Notes under the pieces: generated by a model
What the model was told of the DNA's origin: nothing
The model's input: only the letters and a program-made list of their open reading frames with translations
Database searches by the model: none
Made by a program: the position numbers and the translations under genes
Shown here: piece by piece, positions 5,257 to 32,884 of the stretch
How positions within the stretch are numbered: the first letter of the stretch is position 1
Layout: each line of letters begins with the position of its first letter
NCBI GenBank assembly: GCA_018971775.1
Contig: JAGXAB010000005.1
Coordinates: forward strand, 1-64,000
Length of the DNA stretch: 64,000 nucleotides
Direction: 5' to 3'
DNA from: Cyanobacteria bacterium REEB67
Lineage (GTDB): Bacteria; Cyanobacteriota; Vampirovibrionia; Obscuribacterales; Obscuribacteraceae

Positions 5257-5371
5257 TTGACATACCCCGTTTGATATATTTTTCCGGGTGGTATGATCGG
5301 TGAAGTTATAAAGAACTCTTGGGAGGCTGGATAGTCTCATATAGGTCGGGAAGCCGACCCTACAAGAGCGT
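5257..5371 (+). promoter_or_regulatory. Putative promoter and structured 5' leader
   Basis: A TTGACA (5257-5262) and a TTGATA (5271-5276) precede a TATGAT (5292-5297). The second pair has a 15-base spacer, which is short. Downstream, the sequence can form a hairpin TAGGTCGG/CCGACCCTA around 5343-5363, just ahead of the next start codon. The arrangement looks like a promoter plus a folded untranslated leader, but I match it to no known riboswitch class. Confidence 0.35.
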
Positions 5372-5740
5372 ATGGGGGAATGCATGGTATTAATCGAGTT
5401 AATCAAACCGACGGCCCTTAAGCGTATTTGTTTCATGGCTGCTCTGGCATTAGTTACTCTTCCTGTCCTCGACAGCGCGGCCCTCGCCAAAGGCAAGCAG
5501 ATTGCCCACAGCGCAAGACGTAGCCACAGCTACTTCGTGCCGCCACCGCCAGCTTATACACCGTCCTACATCCCTGAGCTCCAGCGTCAAGTGAGTTCCG
5601 AAACGCTCGTCGCCAATGAAGGCGCCGATCAACTGGTTGCTTCTGAAAACGCCGACAAATATGTCCGCGCCCAGGACGGCTATCAAGATCCGAAAGCGGT
5701 TCATGCCAATAAGTACGTCACTTACTGGAATCAGAAGTAA
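5372..5740 (+). CDS. Small secreted protein of unknown function
   Basis: This protein has 122 residues from the ATG at 5372. An ATG at 5384 preceded by GGGGGA is an equally good start and gives a cleaner signal peptide. A basic N-terminus, a hydrophobic run (FMAALALVTLPVLDSA) and ALA-KG indicate Sec export, with cleavage near residue 39. The mature part is short and polar, with a VPPPPAYTPSYIP stretch and a Tyr/Asn-rich end (KYVRAQDGYQ, NKYVTYWNQK). No family is recognised. A strong intrinsic terminator follows, so it is a single-gene transcript. Confidence 0.6.
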   Translation: MGECMVLIELIKPTALKRICFMAALALVTLPVLDSAALAKGKQIAHSARRSHSYFVPPPPAYTPSYIPELQRQVSSETLVANEGADQLVASENADKYVRAQDGYQDPKAVHANKYVTYWNQK

Positions 5741-5765
5741 GAACTGCTCTTTTGAAAAAAGTATC

Positions 5766-5797
5766 AACACCTCGGCGGCAGCCGGGGTGTTTTTTTT
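5766..5797 (+). terminator. Intrinsic terminator
   Basis: An 11-base stem (AACACCTCGGC with GCCGGGGTGTT, one G-U pair) closes a four-base loop and runs straight into seven T residues. It lies 25 bases after the stop of the small secreted protein gene. Confidence 0.9.
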
Positions 5798-5869
5798 CGC
5801 GATAACCGTGTTGCGCAAAGGCTCGCTCCTGCAGACAATGACATTTCGCCCCGGCAAGGTTGAACCGCT

Positions 5870-6568
5870 ATGTTTGCTCAATTGACGAAATTTTTTACCC
5901 GCAGAGAAAACCGCTTTTTCGGCATGCTTTACGGCTCGTTTGCGCTTTCAGCAGCACTGATGCAATATGCGCCGACACATGAGGCGTCTAAAGAGATGAT
6001 CGTCAGAACGCCGGATAAAACAGAAGAGCTGCGTCCGATCAAGCTTCTGAACACCAGTAAAATTCTGACGCCAATTTCACTGATACCGGCGCTGCAAACG
6101 AAAGCATACGGCCAGCCAAAACAAGCAATGATTAAACTTGTGGGCCCCCCGGACTACATCGAAAAAAATCTCTCTTTTGAAAACTGCCCCGATGCATTTA
6201 AAAATGCTGACGAGGTCTGGTTTTATAAATCGCGGAGCGGCCATTATGTGCCGGCTACTTTCAGCAAAGGGAAATGCACCGGCACACCAGATCTGAGCGG
6301 TCAGGATTTAAAAGCCTACGAAGCATGGAAGGCAGACCAGATCGAAAAACGCGCTCCGGGTATGTCAGAAAAAGAACTCAAAGCATGGCTTGGCGACTGC
6401 TTCAAACCGTGTGCAAGAAATCTGGAAAGCATTGTCCAGGATCTGGACAGCAGATACGTCACCCACAATCGAAACACAGGCGAATTCTATTTGAATTCAT
6501 GCACTGTAGTCGTACTCGCAATGAAGAGCGAACGATGCGTCAAAGTGGAGAAACACTCTCTTTTTTGA
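5870..6568 (+). CDS. Hypothetical protein with N-terminal signal/anchor
   Basis: This 232-residue protein has a moderately hydrophobic segment at residues 17-32 (FFGMLYGSFALSAALMQY) that may be a signal anchor. The mature part has scattered cysteines (FENCPDAF, KGKCTGTP, GDCFKPCARN, LNSCTVV, SERCVK) in a pattern that could form disulfides in the periplasm. Codon use is more AT-rich than in its neighbours. No family is recognised. It starts 72 bases after the terminator and probably has its own promoter. Confidence 0.55.
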   Translation: MFAQLTKFFTRRENRFFGMLYGSFALSAALMQYAPTHEASKEMIVRTPDKTEELRPIKLLNTSKILTPISLIPALQTKAYGQPKQAMIKLVGPPDYIEKNLSFENCPDAFKNADEVWFYKSRSGHYVPATFSKGKCTGTPDLSGQDLKAYEAWKADQIEKRAPGMSEKELKAWLGDCFKPCARNLESIVQDLDSRYVTHNRNTGEFYLNSCTVVVLAMKSERCVKVEKHSLF

Positions 6569-6735
6569 AAGAACCGCACTGGCTGTTCCAGACTCGGCAA
6601 GGCTTCAAGCAAATAAGCACCGCATATGATGCCACATCCGCGATCCAAATTCAAAATTTAAAAAAAACACTCGACGCAAACGATAATGAACTCTTAGACC
6701 AGCCAGTCGCAATAGAGCAGTTTGAATTGGCCTGA
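6535..6735 (+). CDS. Possible small ORF overlapping the end of the previous gene
   Basis: This is a 66-codon frame beginning at ATG 6535, overlapping the preceding gene by 34 bases in another frame. It encodes a polar peptide with no recognisable domain and only a weak ribosome site. It fills an otherwise empty stretch, but composition alone does not prove it is translated. Confidence 0.25.
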   Translation: MRQSGETLSFLKEPHWLFQTRQGFKQISTAYDATSAIQIQNLKKTLDANDNELLDQPVAIEQFELA

Positions 6736-6990
6736 CAGGTTTCTTCAAAAAATTCAGCGAAGTGCCAGTATCTCGTTTTGCCTTTTGGGGACGGCTTAAA
6801 AGCTCAAAACTGACCGGAAGCTTCTGAGAAATATATTTCCAGGAAGTCGAAATCGATTCAAACGCATCTATGTAGCGTTAGACTTCAGCCACGATTAAAT
6901 TCGCCTTTCCAGTATAGCCTTGAAGCTATATAATTTCATTGAAGACGTATAAGATAATCTATCTCGATCAATTTGCGGAGTGGCTCGCCG
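6736..6990. other. AT-rich intergenic region before the XRE gene
   Basis: This is 255 bases of visibly AT-richer sequence than the window average. No toxin gene, tRNA or repeat was found here. A GGAG at about 6976-6979 is the ribosome site of the following gene. Confidence 0.4.
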
Positions 6991-27011: not shown

Positions 27012-29630
27012 TTATTCGGACAAGATTACGCTTTTGCTTTCCGCTTCAAACAAGGATAACTGCATCACTTCTTCGATCGGAATATTGCGTAAACGGGGAC
27101 CGTCTAAGATTTTACCGGCTACGCCCCTTTTTTCCATCTGGTTGATCAGATTCTGAGCTCGCTCGATGATCTGCATAGGCAGACCGGCCATGCGCGCCAC
27201 TTGCACGCCAAAGCTACGGCTGGCGCCACCGGGCACGACGGTGCGAATAAATTCGACCCGACCGTCCAATTCTTTGACTAAAACCTGATAATTGACAATT
27301 TGCGGGATGAAAGTGGAAAGGCCGTTGAGCTCATGATAATGAGTAGCGAAAATAGTCCGAGCCCGCACTTCCTTGGCCAGATATTCAGCCACGCCCCAGG
27401 CGATCGAAACGCCATCGTAAGTACTGGTGCCGCGACCGACTTCGTCGAGGAGGATGAGCGAACGATTTGTGGCGGATAGACAGCACTGCGTCGTCTCGGA
27501 CATCTCGACGAGAAATGTCGATTGCCCCTGGGTGAGATCATCGACGGCGCCGATGCGAGTGAAGATACGATCGACCAGTCCGACTGTCGCTTCCCGAGCC
27601 GGTACGAAAGATCCAATCTGAGCGAGGATGACGATCAATGCGACCTGACGCAGATAGCTCGACTTACCGGCCATGTTCGGACCGGTGAGTATGACCAGTT
27701 GATGATCTTCGCTGTCGCCAAGCAACTTGACGTCATTGGCCACGTATTTGCCCATCGGCAAGATCTTTTCCAGGACTGGATGCCGACCTTGCTTGATCGA
27801 CAAAACATTGGAATGATCTACTTTTGGACAGACAAATTTGCGATCGACGGCAACATTGGCCAATGAAATCAAAGCGTCGAGATTGGCCAGATGGTGCGCG
27901 ATTTTGTGCAGATCCGGACCAAGTGCCGCCGCTTGCTTGCGCAATTCGAGGAAGAGTTTGTGCTCGAGCTCCGATTGATTCTTCTCGGCGTTCAAGATTT
28001 TCACTTCGTATTCTTTCAAATCAGGAGTGATGTAACGCTCGGCATTGGTCAGAGTCTGCTTGCGAATGTAATCGGCGGGGACGAGATTTTGATTGGAATT
28101 GGTCACTTCGATGTAATAGCCGAAGGAACGATTGAAATTGACCTTGAGGCTCTTGATGCCAGTGCGCTCCTGCTCCTTGCGCTGCAGTTCTTCGATCCAC
28201 TGCTTGCCGCCACCGAGGAGGGAGCGCACTTCGTCGAGCTCGGCGTCGAAGCCCTCGGCGAAGATGCCGCCATCGGTGAGCTCACGCGGCGGGTCGGGAA
28301 CGAGGGCGCGGCTGACCAGCTCGCCAAATTCGATGAGGCTCGTCGGCACATGCTTGAGAGCGCTCAAATACGGGCTGCGCGTCGACTGGACAAGAGCGGC
28401 GATCTCGGGCAATACCGAAAGGGACGAAGCGATCGAAAGCAGCTCCTTGGGATTGATGTTTTGGGCGCTCAAACGCACCGAAAGACGCTCCAGATCAGAA
28501 AGCTGCGTGATCAGACCACTGAGCACATCGCGCTTGAAAGTCGGCTCGAGCAATTCTTTAATTGCCTCTTGCCTGGCGATGATAGCCTCTGCCGCCAGAA
28601 GCGGCTTGAGCAGCCACTTGCGCAGCATGCGCGAACCCATCGCTGTTTCGGTCTTATCGATAGCCCAGAGCAATGAACCATTGAAGACACGCTCTCTGGA
28701 TGTTTCGGTAAGCTCGAGATTCTTGCGGGTATTGGCGTCGAGCACCATATAACCATCGGTCGTGTAAGTCGAAATACCATCAAGGGCGATCTTCTGACCG
28801 GCCTGGGTGCGCTCGAGATATTCGAGAACGGCACCGGCGGCGCCTATCGCCAGTGGTTTATCCTGACAGCCGAAGCCTTCGAGGGTGGAGACTTCCAGGG
28901 TAGACAGAATGCGCCTTTGGGCCGGCTCTGCCTGGAAAAACATAGCCGGGCGACCTTTGAAGCGATATTCCCCGGCGATAAGCTCCGGCACCTCCAGCAC
29001 TTCCCGCGGTACCACTTCATTTTCACCCGGCTTAATTGTGCGCACCGGACAGAGCACTTCGGCGGGGCGGATGCGACCGAGTTCTAGAATCAAATTTTCT
29101 TCGTTCAATTCGGTGACGAAAAATTCGCCGCAAGAAGCGTCGACAAAAGCCAGTCCCCACATATCGCTTTCAGGGTTCTGAGCGGCGGCGCGACCGGAGT
29201 TTTTGACAATCGCGGCCAGGTAGTTGTTTTCGCGAGCCGGGAGCAGATGCGATTCCAGCACCGTGCCCGGTGTCAGGACCCGGCTGACTCGCCTTTCCAT
29301 TGGACCTTTTTGCTCGCCGGGCACGCCGACCTGTTCACAGATGGCGACGGAATAGCCTTTGCTGAGCAGGCGAGCGGCATAAGCTTCATAAGAACGATAG
29401 GGCACGCCGGCCATCGGCATGCGGCCATTTGGATGGGAGGATTCAGGCCGACCAGTGAGAACGATGTCAAGCTCGCGCGCCGCTACCTGCGCGTCGTCGC
29501 CGAAAACTTCATAAAAGTCTCCAACCCGAAAAAACAGAAGGGCGTCCGGGAATTGGGATTTGACATCCCAGTATTGCCTCATCATCGGAGACAGATTAGC
29601 CGGTTCCAGTTCCGCTTCCTTACTGACCAC
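27012..29630 (-). CDS. mutS: DNA mismatch repair protein MutS
   Basis: This 872-residue MutS1-type protein recognises mispairs and small loops. The mismatch-probing Phe-x-Glu is in GDFYEVFG near residues 37-44. The connector, lever and clamp regions are followed by the ATPase: Walker A GPNMAGKSSYLRQ near residue 640, Walker B LILLDEVGRGTSTYDG, and FATHYHEL. The length matches the family, and the start GTG gives MVSKEAELEPANLSPMMRQY. The C-terminus (SLFEAES) contains a plausible beta-clamp contact, QLSLF. mutL is not adjacent. The downstream gene follows 19 bases later. Confidence 0.97.
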   Translation of the reverse strand: MVSKEAELEPANLSPMMRQYWDVKSQFPDALLFFRVGDFYEVFGDDAQVAARELDIVLTGRPESSHPNGRMPMAGVPYRSYEAYAARLLSKGYSVAICEQVGVPGEQKGPMERRVSRVLTPGTVLESHLLPARENNYLAAIVKNSGRAAAQNPESDMWGLAFVDASCGEFFVTELNEENLILELGRIRPAEVLCPVRTIKPGENEVVPREVLEVPELIAGEYRFKGRPAMFFQAEPAQRRILSTLEVSTLEGFGCQDKPLAIGAAGAVLEYLERTQAGQKIALDGISTYTTDGYMVLDANTRKNLELTETSRERVFNGSLLWAIDKTETAMGSRMLRKWLLKPLLAAEAIIARQEAIKELLEPTFKRDVLSGLITQLSDLERLSVRLSAQNINPKELLSIASSLSVLPEIAALVQSTRSPYLSALKHVPTSLIEFGELVSRALVPDPPRELTDGGIFAEGFDAELDEVRSLLGGGKQWIEELQRKEQERTGIKSLKVNFNRSFGYYIEVTNSNQNLVPADYIRKQTLTNAERYITPDLKEYEVKILNAEKNQSELEHKLFLELRKQAAALGPDLHKIAHHLANLDALISLANVAVDRKFVCPKVDHSNVLSIKQGRHPVLEKILPMGKYVANDVKLLGDSEDHQLVILTGPNMAGKSSYLRQVALIVILAQIGSFVPAREATVGLVDRIFTRIGAVDDLTQGQSTFLVEMSETTQCCLSATNRSLILLDEVGRGTSTYDGVSIAWGVAEYLAKEVRARTIFATHYHELNGLSTFIPQIVNYQVLVKELDGRVEFIRTVVPGGASRSFGVQVARMAGLPMQIIERAQNLINQMEKRGVAGKILDGPRLRNIPIEEVMQLSLFEAESKSVILSE

Positions 29631-29773: not shown

Positions 29774-30463
29774 ATGGTTCCCAATATGCGAGTCAACATG
29801 CAAGTCACTATGCAGTCCAAGTTCCCGTTCAAAACTCTCGCCCTGAGCCTGTCCTTCGCTTTAAGCACGGCTTCCTTCGCGCTGGCGCCCCTGAGCGGCG
29901 CCAGCGCTGCACCGGCTGCCAAAACCGCCAAAACCGCCGAAAAAGCCGAAAAAGCCGAAAAGGGCGCTGACACCGCCAAAGCCACGGACAAGGCCGCCGA
30001 CAAGACGGCTGAGAAACCGGACGCCAAGAAAGAGCCGACCAGGCCTGAACCGGTCATCGAAAATATCGTCAATGTCCAGGCCGAAACCTTAGTCGACCAC
30101 CCGAACGAATATCTCAATAAGAATGTGCGCTTCACCGGCATGTTCTCCGGCTACAACAGTCTCGCCCTCGATTACAAACCGGCTCTGCGCTCGGCCAAAG
30201 ACTATCTTTCCTTTTCTATCCTGCGCGATCATTCAAAGGTGCCGCTTTCCGAATTGAAAATGGCCATGAAAAATCCCAAGGATGAAAAAGACCCTTCCAC
30301 TAAGCTTCTTCTCAAACTGAAAGAGAAAGATGAGATTGAAGTAATCGGCAAAGTATTTGCCACCCCCCTCGATGAACCGTGGGTGGACGTACTCAAACTC
30401 AAATTGATCAAAGAAGCACCGGACGACAAAAAAGCCGATGCCGGCTCGACAACGACAAAATAA
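29774..30463 (+). CDS. Secreted protein with Ala/Lys linker and OB-like domain
   Basis: This 229-residue protein has a signal peptide (KTLALSLSFALSTASFALAPL, ending SGASA-AP). An Ala/Lys/Glu/Asp-rich disordered linker (~residues 50-90, repeated KAEKAEK and ADK units) precedes a C-terminal domain, ~100-215. The motif ETLVDHPNEYLNKNVRFTGMF and the later KDEIEVIGKVFATPLDEPWVDV resemble the strand order of an OB-like, tRNA_anti-type fold; this is a by-eye suggestion. ATGs at 29774 and 29786 are both possible starts. It heads a three-gene operon, with the roadblock gene starting 18 bases after its stop. Confidence 0.6.
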   Translation: MVPNMRVNMQVTMQSKFPFKTLALSLSFALSTASFALAPLSGASAAPAAKTAKTAEKAEKAEKGADTAKATDKAADKTAEKPDAKKEPTRPEPVIENIVNVQAETLVDHPNEYLNKNVRFTGMFSGYNSLALDYKPALRSAKDYLSFSILRDHSKVPLSELKMAMKNPKDEKDPSTKLLLKLKEKDEIEVIGKVFATPLDEPWVDVLKLKLIKEAPDDKKADAGSTTTK

Positions 30464-30481
30464 GAGGAGAGGAAAAATTAG

Positions 30482-30859
30482 ATGGTCGCCCCAGAATCGG
30501 CAGAACAGGTCAAGACTCTACTTAATTCGCTGAATGGCAAGCACGGCATTCTCGGCTGTTTGCTCGTTGCTCGCGACGGCAGCGTCGTTTCTACTTCCCT
30601 TCCCGCCGAAGTAGACATCGCCACAATCGGAGCGCTCAGCGCCACGCTCTTCTCTAACAATGATGTTTCGATCCAGCGCATGAACCGTGGCAATTTGGTT
30701 CAAATGACGCTGCTAACCGATCAGGGTATTTTGCACTTTTACGAAGCCGCCGGTCACTTTCTCGTAGTCTTGACCGCTAAAGATCAGAGAATCAATCTAG
30801 AAGGTTTGATTCGTTCAGTCGAAGAGCAGGGCAAAACTCTGGAAACGATGATCAACTAG
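30482..30859 (+). CDS. Roadblock/LC7 domain protein
   Basis: This 125-residue single-domain protein has the roadblock/LC7 fold: the helix EQVKTLLNSLNGKHG, the strand GCLLVARDGSVVSTSLP, the helix IATIGALSATLFSNNDVSI and a final three-stranded segment (NLVQMTLLTDQGILHFYEAAGHFLVVLTA) plus a C-terminal helix. In bacteria these proteins (MglB-like) pair with small Ras-like GTPases to control polarity, motility or development. No GTPase gene is in this window, so its partner is unknown. AGGAGAGG lies ~12 bases before the ATG. It sits between two secreted-protein genes in one operon. Confidence 0.85.
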   Translation: MVAPESAEQVKTLLNSLNGKHGILGCLLVARDGSVVSTSLPAEVDIATIGALSATLFSNNDVSIQRMNRGNLVQMTLLTDQGILHFYEAAGHFLVVLTAKDQRINLEGLIRSVEEQGKTLETMIN

Positions 30860-30870
30860 GAGTAGTTGTT

Positions 30871-31992
30871 ATGTCAGGTCCAGTTAGAAGCGAAAAGCAG
30901 GGAACAGGCTCTAAAAAGCTCAGACCAATGGTCATTCTCGCTCTCAGTCTTTTCCTCACCGCGGGCCTGCAGTCCAATTACACCTGCCTGGCCCAAAATG
31001 ACGGCGGACAGCCTTATCAAGGCAATCCCAACGGTCAGTATCAAAATCAAGGCTATCCCCAGGGACAACCGGCCCAGTCCGGCCAAAATGAGACATTCAA
31101 CGCCCAGCAACAGCCGCCCTACCAGCCCCCGTATCAGCAACCTTATCAACAGTCCTATCAGCAGCCGCCCATGCAGTTGCAGGGCCAGGCCGTCATGATT
31201 GGCGCCGGTACCGAATTTCAAGCATCTCTCATCAACACCCTCGACTCTGGCGTCACCCAACCGGGCGAGCAGGTACAGGCCACACTCAGCCAGCCGCTCA
31301 TGGGATCTAATGGTTCAGAAGCGATTCCGGCCGGTTCGACCCTGACCGGCAATATTTCCAATGTCGTCTCCGCCAAACGTTTTCGTTTTGGCGCCAACGG
31401 CAAGATCGACATCAAATTTACTTCAGTACGCACTCCTGATGGGCGCGTTTTCCCGCTGCAGGGTTCGGTAGACGGCAACCAGGTCAAACTAGTAGGTGGC
31501 TCGACGGCCGGAAGGGTAGGCAAAGGGTTGCTTACGACCGGCATCGGTGCCGGCGGAGGAGCGGCTCTTGGCACCGGATTGGGAGCAATTGTCGGGGCCA
31601 CCTCTCACGGACAGGTAGGACGGGCTACCGGCATGGGCGCCGTCTTCGGCACCGCCATTGGTGGCGGCGTCGGTCTGGTCGGAGCGGGCGTGCGCAAAGG
31701 CTCGGAGGTAATCTTCAAAGCCGGCACATCTTTGCCGATCAAGCTCGACCAGTCGATGCAGGTAACGACTCAGGTCGCCGGCCAACCTTATGGCAGCCAG
31801 CCCTACTATCCACCCCAGCAACCGCAGTATCAGCAACCGCCGCAATATCAGCAACAATACCAGCAACAACCGGCACCGCAGTATCAAAAAGCGCCGCCGC
31901 AGTATCAACAACAGCAGCCGCCACAGCAGGCACAGCAACAGCCGCAGCAGGTCTTCCAGCCCCAACCGGTCTGGACGCCCAATCAGCAGTAA
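30871..31992 (+). CDS. Secreted Gln/Pro-rich protein with TrbI/VirB10-like barrel and glycine zipper
   Basis: This 373-residue protein has a signal peptide (MVILALSLFLTAGLQSNYTCLA) and an N-terminal Tyr/Gln/Pro-rich region. A domain at ~105-210 follows (GTEFQASLINTLDSGVTQPG, EAIPAGSTLTGNI) that resembles the barrel in TrbI/VirB10-type proteins. A glycine-zipper stretch at ~210-270 (GKGLLTTGIGAGGGAALGTG, GMGAVFGTAIGGGVGLVGAG) may insert in a membrane. The end is another Gln/Tyr/Pro-rich tail (PQYQQPPQYQQQYQQQPAPQ). It lies 11 bases after the roadblock gene. It is probably an outer-envelope or pore-associated protein. Confidence 0.6.
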   Translation: MSGPVRSEKQGTGSKKLRPMVILALSLFLTAGLQSNYTCLAQNDGGQPYQGNPNGQYQNQGYPQGQPAQSGQNETFNAQQQPPYQPPYQQPYQQSYQQPPMQLQGQAVMIGAGTEFQASLINTLDSGVTQPGEQVQATLSQPLMGSNGSEAIPAGSTLTGNISNVVSAKRFRFGANGKIDIKFTSVRTPDGRVFPLQGSVDGNQVKLVGGSTAGRVGKGLLTTGIGAGGGAALGTGLGAIVGATSHGQVGRATGMGAVFGTAIGGGVGLVGAGVRKGSEVIFKAGTSLPIKLDQSMQVTTQVAGQPYGSQPYYPPQQPQYQQPPQYQQQYQQQPAPQYQKAPPQYQQQQPPQQAQQQPQQVFQPQPVWTPNQQ

Positions 31993-32019
31993 AAAGTCGG
32001 GCTTATATAACAGTCTCTG

Positions 32020-32047
32020 AAAACTGAACCGATATCGGTTCAGTTTT
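32020..32047. terminator. Perfect 28-bp palindrome between convergent genes
   Basis: The 28 bases from 32020 to 32047 are a perfect palindrome: 14 bases per arm, centred on GAT|ATC, core CCGATATCGG, with A-run and T-run at the ends. Placed between the stops of the secreted protein gene and uppS, it can act as a bidirectional terminator. With no loop the RNA hairpin would open a few central bases. Confidence 0.75.
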
Positions 32048-32065
32048 TTGCAATCAGAAACTCTT

Positions 32066-32095: not shown

Positions 32096-32884
32096 TTAAT
32101 CTCCGCCCCAGCGGCGATTGCGTTGCACGAAGTCGGCGATAGCCTGCTCGAAGTGCTCGGGGGAAAATTCCGGCCATAATGTCGGCGTGATAAATAGCTC
32201 CGTATAAGCGGATTGCCAGAGCAAATAGTTAGAGAGCCGCATCTCGCCGCCGGTACGGATTAAGAGTTCGGGGTCCGGGATACCGGCGGTGTACAGATGA
32301 TTGTTAATCAGCTCTTCGGTGATCTGCTCGGGCTCGATCTTGCCGGCCTTAACCAGGCTGGCGATTTTCTTGACGGCATCGGTGATCTCCAGCCTGGCAC
32401 CATAATTGATCGCCACCTGGAGGGAAAGACCGGTATTGTTCGCCGTCTTTGCCATAGTGTTTTGCATGGAGCGCTTCAGACGAGTCGGCACCGCCTCGAG
32501 CTGGCCAAGGAAACTGAGCTTGACGCCATTGTCGGCCAGTTCGGCAAACTCATCAGTGAGGACGCGACCAAATAGCTCGAAAAGATAATTGACCTCTTCT
32601 TCCGTCCGCTGCCAGTTTTCGCTGGAAAAAGCGTAAACGGTCAAATATTTAAGACCGCGGGCGCCGACATGACGGACCAGGCGCTTGAGGCTTTTGACGC
32701 CCTCCTGGTGCCCTTTCAGACGAGGGTAGCGACGCGTGTCGGCCCAACGACGATTGCCGTCCATGATAATGGCGACGTGCTCGAGAGGCAGCGCAGCATC
32801 CCCCTTGACAGCGACCACTTCCTGACTTAAGGCCTGCTTAGACTTGTCTGATTTTGATAGTTTGGTGTGCGTCAATGTCTTCAC
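32096..32884 (-). CDS. uppS: Isoprenyl transferase (undecaprenyl diphosphate synthase)
   Basis: This 262-residue cis-prenyltransferase makes the C55 carrier for peptidoglycan and surface glycans. Residues 38-48 hold IIMDGNRRWA with catalytic Asp42. GHQEGVKSL, YAFSSENWQR and the C-terminal DPELLIRTGGEMRLSNYLLWQSAYTEL are family signatures, with the product-end helix. About 30 extra N-terminal residues precede the conserved core. The gene is divergent from the YqeG-like phosphatase gene. It connects functionally with the MBOAT/SGNH/GT39 surface operon, which should use polyprenyl-linked donors. Confidence 0.95.
   Translation of the reverse strand: MKTLTHTKLSKSDKSKQALSQEVVAVKGDAALPLEHVAIIMDGNRRWADTRRYPRLKGHQEGVKSLKRLVRHVGARGLKYLTVYAFSSENWQRTEEEVNYLFELFGRVLTDEFAELADNGVKLSFLGQLEAVPTRLKRSMQNTMAKTANNTGLSLQVAINYGARLEITDAVKKIASLVKAGKIEPEQITEELINNHLYTAGIPDPELLIRTGGEMRLSNYLLWQSAYTELFITPTLWPEFSPEHFEQAIADFVQRNRRWGGD

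Follow-up and report, generated by a model that had tools for sequence, protein, structure and literature searches.

Most of what is understood about LC7/roadblock proteins concerns their partnership with small GTPases. What, then, is the role of such a protein at a locus where its gene lies between those of two exported proteins, and where no MglA-like GTPase is encoded within the window, i.e., the whole 64-kb stretch of DNA that was analyzed (best tblastn match, E 0.15)? According to sections of PMC4316618 and PMC9481161, the LC7 protein MglB forms a dimer that acts on the small GTPase MglA. The three genes considered here, termed P1, P2, and P3, are listed with their surroundings.

P1, 29774-30463, + strand: exported OB-fold protein of 229 aa; export signal (by eye), Lys/Ala-rich linker, OB domain at residues ~98-213
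P2, 30482-30859, + strand: stand-alone Robl_LC7 protein of 125 aa; no export signal seen
P3, 30871-31992, + strand: exported protein of 373 aa; VirB10/TrbI C-terminal-domain-like fold at residues ~106-300, with a Gly-rich segment; no SLH
Likely terminator hairpin, 32019-32048, + strand: would close the transcription unit; judged by folding energy against shuffles
mutS, 27012-29630, - strand: divergent upstream flank, outside the trio; kept in the order
uppS (polyprenyl diphosphate synthase), 32096-32884, - strand: convergent downstream flank, outside the trio; frequent in the order

Organization of the locus and its predicted products

All three open reading frames (ORFs) lie on the + strand, with 18 bases between P1 and P2 and 11 bases between P2 and P3. 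They look like one transcription unit, given that mutS is divergent upstream and that a hairpin with a T run occurs downstream of P3. This hairpin has 13 pairs, its 3' side ends in the T run, and the 60-nt stretch containing it folds at -20.4 kcal/mol (z -4.2; 1 of 200 shuffles was as good). Two results count against a single unit: the consensus terminator scan did not list the hairpin, and the promoter scan returned no sigma-70-like promoter on the + strand. The tightly packed arrangement of a secreted, an LC7, and a second secreted protein described in the initial annotation is confirmed by the ORF positions, the Robl_LC7 match of P2, and the N-termini as judged by eye. The NCBIfam models gave no name above cut-off for P1, P2, or P3.

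The N-terminus of P1 is hydrophobic and is followed by A-x-A motifs, as recognized by eye rather than with a signal-peptide predictor. In the AlphaFold model, 98 of the 229 residues have a pLDDT of ≥90, and the confidently modeled C-terminal domain (residues ~98-213) forms an OB barrel. Comparison of this model with known structures gave a best Foldseek E of 2.6e-6 and, with VIA, a Z of 10.7 (rmsd 3.0, 98 residues aligned); the structural matches of the domain are the AsnRS N-terminal domain, OBody, and Ten1 (Z up to 10.7). Searching PDB sequences with the P1 profile returned two matches only (E 0.17 and 0.52), which were taken as chance. The OB-like fold initially proposed for P1 is therefore borne out by structure prediction, and its secretion by inspection of the N-terminus.

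P2 scores 34.4 bits against Robl_LC7 (PF03259), above the curated cut-off of 23, and it is the sole stand-alone LC7 protein found in its own genome. It should be cytosolic, as no export signal was seen in it. When PDB sequences were searched with the P2 profile, other roadblock chains came first (best E 7e-10), and no chain named MglB was among the 20 sequences at E ≤ 1. Elsewhere in this genome, LC7 domains end two very long low-complexity proteins (L070:3773-8374 on C3 and L071:7488-10649 on C23); by eye, one starts with a Cys-rich, zinc-finger-like region and the other with membrane-like segments. Short motifs of the type IDDIFSEL / IDRIFGE recur in both. Three consecutive LC7 matches occur in a related genome (G014:C14:89740-90818); two of these are in frames as short as 127 and 164 aa, so P2 is not the only short LC7 frame in some relatives.

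At its N-terminus, P3 carries a hydrophobic segment, as judged by eye; stretches rich in Q/P and one rich in Gly are also present. Its model has a mean pLDDT of 60.6, with 96 residues at ≥90, and the predicted structure has the fold of the VirB10/TrbI C-terminal domain: chains from entries for type IV secretion outer-membrane cores fill Foldseek ranks 1-24 and also the top 14 rows of the VIA comparison (Z 9.6-13.8; next row, Z 3.8). Going by the entry titles, we take each of these structural matches to be a VirB10-type subunit. The Gly-rich segment is located between strands and includes helices with a pLDDT of about 40-45; its position is that of the antenna helices in VirB10. The earlier description of P3 as a glycine-zipper envelope protein holds insofar as the protein is Gly-rich and exported, and had missed that the glycine stretch sits inside a VirB10-like domain.

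In an alignment of 27 P3 members, SLH matches occur in 22 and TrbI matches in eight (E ≤ 0.01); the P3 of the window is short and, unlike those 22, has no SLH match. The core alignments A5 and A9 (the latter comprising 10 members from the order and eight from families f4 and f7, see below) leave out the P3 of L039, which is ~30% identical and was nevertheless counted as present. The window's own genome contains 10 copies of the P3-like family at E ≤ 1e-10, examples being C209:88698-89273 and C198:8540-9118. At the same threshold, matches to the P3-like VirB10-type domain number 5-14 per genome in the order and 2-8 elsewhere in the class.

Conservation of the gene set in the order and the class

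Close relatives of P2 were found at 48 loci in named records, labeled mostly Obscuribacter, Obscuribacterales, Melainabacteria, or Cyanobacteria, with few other labels; on the basis of these labels, the group is called Obscuribacterales-like, and this is the order referred to throughout. Orthologues of P2 occur in 37 of 39 genomes of the order and in none of 21 genomes outside it, and the two genomes in which P2 was missed are 65% and 76% complete. The order was sampled with 36 fetched loci plus the window. P1 is immediately upstream of P2 on the same strand at all 37 loci (one of the 36 gaps, -113 in L061, results from an over-long start call). P3 is downstream of P2 at 27 of the 37 (the window and 26 of the 36 fetched loci), within 200 bases at 19; at loci with a larger distance, other genes or long spacers intervene. 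At 10 of the 36 fetched loci, P3 was not found in the fetched stretch. Two of the genomes concerned, G015 and G036, have a high-scoring P3 copy on another contig, and the other eight (G002, G003, G005, G006, G014, G024, G025, and G026) have paralogue-level P3 matches only. Upstream, mutS is present at 34 of the 36 loci (in the remaining two, the stretch is short), and uppS is nearby at 30.

At two loci (L047:6581-8397 and L048:5946-7848), P2 is immediately followed, on the opposite strand, by genes for an oxidoreductase-like protein and a small exported protein (names assigned by eye); P3 is ~5 kb from P2 in L047, and no P3 was found in L048.

Beyond the order, the families of the class are given the working labels f1-f8. 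P1, P3, and an intervening small protein, X, were first found in the order P1-X-P3 in eight genomes of f4 and f7. X was then found in 18 of 146 genomes of the class (nine of f4 and nine of f7), and at all 18 loci it follows P1 and precedes P3, with all three on one strand. The X proteins are 99-135 aa long, that of L204 being a shortened ORF. None of the eight X proteins scanned matched Pfam Robl_LC7, and a PDB search with the X profile gave no significant LC7 match, with a roadblock chain second at E 0.09. Profiles connect X to P2 nonetheless. When 1,102 ORFs were searched with an HMM of all 18 X proteins, the 36 P2 orthologues took ranks 1-36 (E 4e-7 to 2.8e-3), ahead of the next ORF at 0.29. 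In the opposite direction, a P2 HMM run over 161 ORFs placed 17 X proteins on top, though weakly (E 0.00095-0.59), and the eighteenth below two decoys. Aligned with hhalign, all 18 X proteins together score 81.5% against P2 (E 1.1e-5) over almost the full length; single families score 71.9% (f4) and 11.7% (four f7 proteins), compared with 0.3% and 1.2% for unrelated pairs.

The surroundings of the trio are not the same in these families. The f7 stretch L173 is flanked by gmk, coaBC, purQ, and thrC, and the f4 stretch L185 by thrS, with sdhC and mreB nearby, which differs from the mutS/uppS setting of the order; L174 and L190 appear similar by eye. As the set is kept in differing surroundings while its middle gene has diverged past the reach of Pfam, the comparison points to a functional link among P1, the LC7-like gene, and P3. 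In L190, tandem P3-like genes follow X (5339-6814), the second judged by eye.

P1 was found in 59 of 60 relatives, among them every one of the 21 genomes from the class's other families, with one match per genome except in G019, which has a second, weak one. In a sample of the phylum, 88 of 194 genomes had P1 matches, every one of them belonging to this class. Twelve stretches inspected in f3, f5, f6, and f8 have P1 without X and P3 beside it, and P1 therefore does not need the LC7 and P3 genes. In the P1 tree, f7 groups with the order (support 81/78), f4 stands apart, and f3, f5, f6, and f8 fall in other groups; the tree was built from 39 sequences with trimmed N-termini, 19 of the order's 37 and 20 from other families. 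An ancestral trio with later losses is favored, under a tree that is midpoint-rooted only.

The gene-neighborhood comparison thus found the set to be conserved well beyond the genus. A chance arrangement peculiar to one genome was ruled out by its recurrence in the order and in f4 and f7.

MglA GTPases in the genome and its relatives

The statement that no GTPase is nearby holds for the 64-kb window, and does not hold for the genome. The search for MglA-type GTPases suggested alongside it was run, and returned two intact MglA-family genes, C177:106384-106959 and C188:33239-33811, together with a broken MglA-like copy with an internal stop (C54:13376-13999), none of the three beside an LC7 gene. 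A genome lacking the GTPase was accordingly rejected; both intact genes lie outside the window. The C177 gene is on the contig of P2, at a distance of 75.5 kb, and the C188 gene is on another contig; the LC7 genes are on other contigs or these 75.5 kb away. Residues 10-200 of the C177 GTPase align to residues 1-191 of Myxococcus xanthus MglA (6hjh) with E 1.1e-79, and its R62 and Q91, aligned to Arg53 and Gln82 of MglA, are invariant in 40 of 40 GTPase sequences. We take Arg53 and Gln82 to be the catalytic residues of MglA (arginine finger and glutamine). Full-length similarity and both of these positions identify the C177 protein as a member of the MglA family.

The second intact gene (C188; L085:5419-7827) directly follows a gene for a DUF4388/GGDEF protein, and DUF4388 presumably corresponds to the PATAN domain. 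PATAN-domain proteins are encoded near some MglA genes, as noted in part of PMC4316618.

At E ≤ 1e-20, MglA was found in 37 of the 60 genomes, all within the order (37/39) and none among the 21 outside it; the two order genomes without a match are 65-66% complete. Within the order, LC7 and MglA therefore co-occur almost perfectly, which counts against a reading that is independent of MglA. The 18 genomes with X gave no MglA-family match at E ≤ 1e-3, and 13 of the 18 are ≥90% complete; the search used one family profile, which would not pick up a strongly divergent small GTPase. In both settings, P1 and P3 accompany the LC7-like gene, while its co-occurrence with MglA is confined to the order. 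One X genome (G058) has a further LC7-domain protein elsewhere, in a 547-aa frame.

The genes for LC7 and MglA share a contig, about 39-79 kb apart, in at least 10 genomes of the order (by eye), and are separated by 298 kb in G022. This spacing is a loose conserved neighborhood, exemplified by C177:30482 and C177:106384. No P2-like LC7 ORF was detected with blastp (P2-like queries, E ≤ 0.01, at which divergent LC7 domains could escape) in 40 stretches around GTPase genes; these hold 40 GTPase ORFs, as L099 has no MglA-like ORF and L109 has two, and several stop at contig ends. One exception, outside that set, was seen when the LC7 and MglA tables were compared by eye: in G034 (L217:6156-14186), the gene for a 430-aa LC7-domain protein lies on the opposite strand, ~6 kb and several genes away from MglA. 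A mirror-tree analysis of the 16 of 36 loci with complete data gave partial correlations of 0.20 (P1-P2), 0.20 (P1-MglA), and -0.15 (P2-MglA).

Competing readings and relation to known systems

We lean toward the view that the trio represents an ancient envelope operon of the class, whose cytosolic LC7-like member can work without MglA. P2 may, in the order, also act as an unlinked MglB-like regulator of MglA, given that the genome has two intact MglA genes and neither is beside an LC7 gene. An opposing view, which we consider rather unlikely, is that P2 is simply a putative unlinked MglB-type GAP of MglA and that P1 and P3 are mere operon companions. The parallel distributions of MglA and P2 speak for it (each in 37/39 genomes of the order and 0/21 outside), as do the close match of the C177 GTPase to MglA with both catalytic positions invariant, the status of P2 as the only stand-alone LC7 protein of its genome, and the existence of uncoupled MglA and MglB genes, 59 and 328 of which are counted in a section of PMC4316618. 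Against that view, a divergent homologue of P2 occupies the same slot in 18 genomes without detectable MglA; the P2 profile also retrieves no PDB chain named MglB at E ≤ 1, the surroundings of the 40 GTPase genes yielded no P2-type LC7 gene, the two other LC7 domains of the genome could serve MglA instead, and G034 encodes the 430-aa LC7-domain protein at ~6 kb from MglA.

This use of the genomes without detectable MglA depends on X: if X is not LC7, the argument fails. That X is an unrelated small protein occupying the slot in f4 and f7 seems improbable to us, even though Pfam detects LC7 in none of the eight X proteins scanned, the X profile has no significant LC7 match in the PDB, the four f7 proteins score only 11.7% against P2, and the P2 HMM finds X weakly. 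The X HMM separates 36 of 36 P2 orthologues cleanly from all other ORFs, the X-P2 alignment extends over almost the full length at E 1.1e-5, and both length and slot agree. We regard as very improbable that the trio is a neighborhood without function, kept by slow rearrangement. The block around it is indeed syntenic in the order (mutS 34/36, uppS 30/36), but the flanks differ in L173 and L185 while gene order and strand are the same at 18 of 18 X loci, and the divergence of X has gone beyond what Pfam recognizes as LC7. A point that does weigh against the envelope operon reading is that P2 is predicted to be cytosolic while P1 and P3 are exported, so that direct contact is not obvious. The same applies to the P1 genes without LC7 and P3 neighbors in f3, f5, f6, and f8, to the 10 loci at which P3 was not found, and to the weakness of the P2 HMM search against X.

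For the envelope operon, we propose the following arrangement. P1 would reside in the periplasm as an OB-fold protein, P3 would belong to the outer envelope and be based on a VirB10/TrbI C-terminal-type domain, mostly combined with SLH, and the LC7 protein would be their cytosolic partner. The LC7 dimer could act on the cytosolic side as an adaptor or as an NTPase regulator, and would govern the timing or site at which the P1/P3 envelope assembly is built or placed, without MglA if need be. In the Obscuribacterales-like genomes, it may in addition regulate the unlinked MglA GTPases, as an acquired or a retained role. The governing NTPase in the order would perhaps be MglA, and in f4 and f7 another NTPase, or LC7 would act alone. 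A more specific proposal, offered tentatively, is a GTPase-independent LC7 system in which the roadblock dimer, the periplasmic OB protein, and the VirB10-like outer-envelope protein form one assembly in these non-photosynthetic cyanobacterial relatives; LC7 would predate MglA or survive without it, and in one order would have been wired to MglA, or kept with it, which would supply an envelope structure with a cell-polarity input. The initial suggestion of an undescribed envelope system, or of an LC7 protein with a changed role, fits the trio in the 18 genomes without detectable MglA; its polarity component is conjectural.

Several known systems share components with this locus. As in the MglA/MglB polarity module of Myxococcus and Thermus, a single-domain LC7 protein occurs in the same genome as genuine MglA-family GTPases; unlike in that module, the LC7 and GTPase genes are unlinked, the LC7 gene is placed among those of two exported proteins, and a homologous slot exists in genomes without detectable MglA. 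The conservons (Cvn / mfp) of Actinobacteria likewise have an LC7 protein in a small conserved operon, with a histidine kinase and a GTPase according to portions of PMC4316618 and PMC13015309; these two are absent from the trio operon, which has OB-fold and VirB10-like exported proteins instead. P3 resembles the VirB10/TrbI/ComB10 outer-membrane core in the fold of its C-terminal domain and in the Gly-rich segment between strands. It differs in its export signal (by eye), in the usual presence of SLH, in having several paralogues per genome, and in its surroundings, where no type IV secretion gene is among the nine named flanking proteins (mutS, uppS, gmk, coaBC, purQ, thrC, thrS, mreB, and sdhC). 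Full type IV secretion operons are described for Vampirovibrio, of the same class, in part of PMC4451040. With SLH-domain envelope proteins, the likeness extends to the 22 of 27 P3 alignment members that carry SLH; the P3 of the window differs, and the common core is the VirB10-like domain.

No description of such an operon was found in the titles and abstract openings of the open-access papers that the searches listed. As of 2014, none of the 328 MglB-like genes uncoupled from MglA had been studied, according to a section of PMC4316618. The family described here is an uncoupled LC7-like family whose fixed, conserved gene partnership is open to testing, including in genomes without detectable MglA. 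In addition, it connects the LC7 fold with an envelope domain of VirB10 type that lies outside secretion operons.
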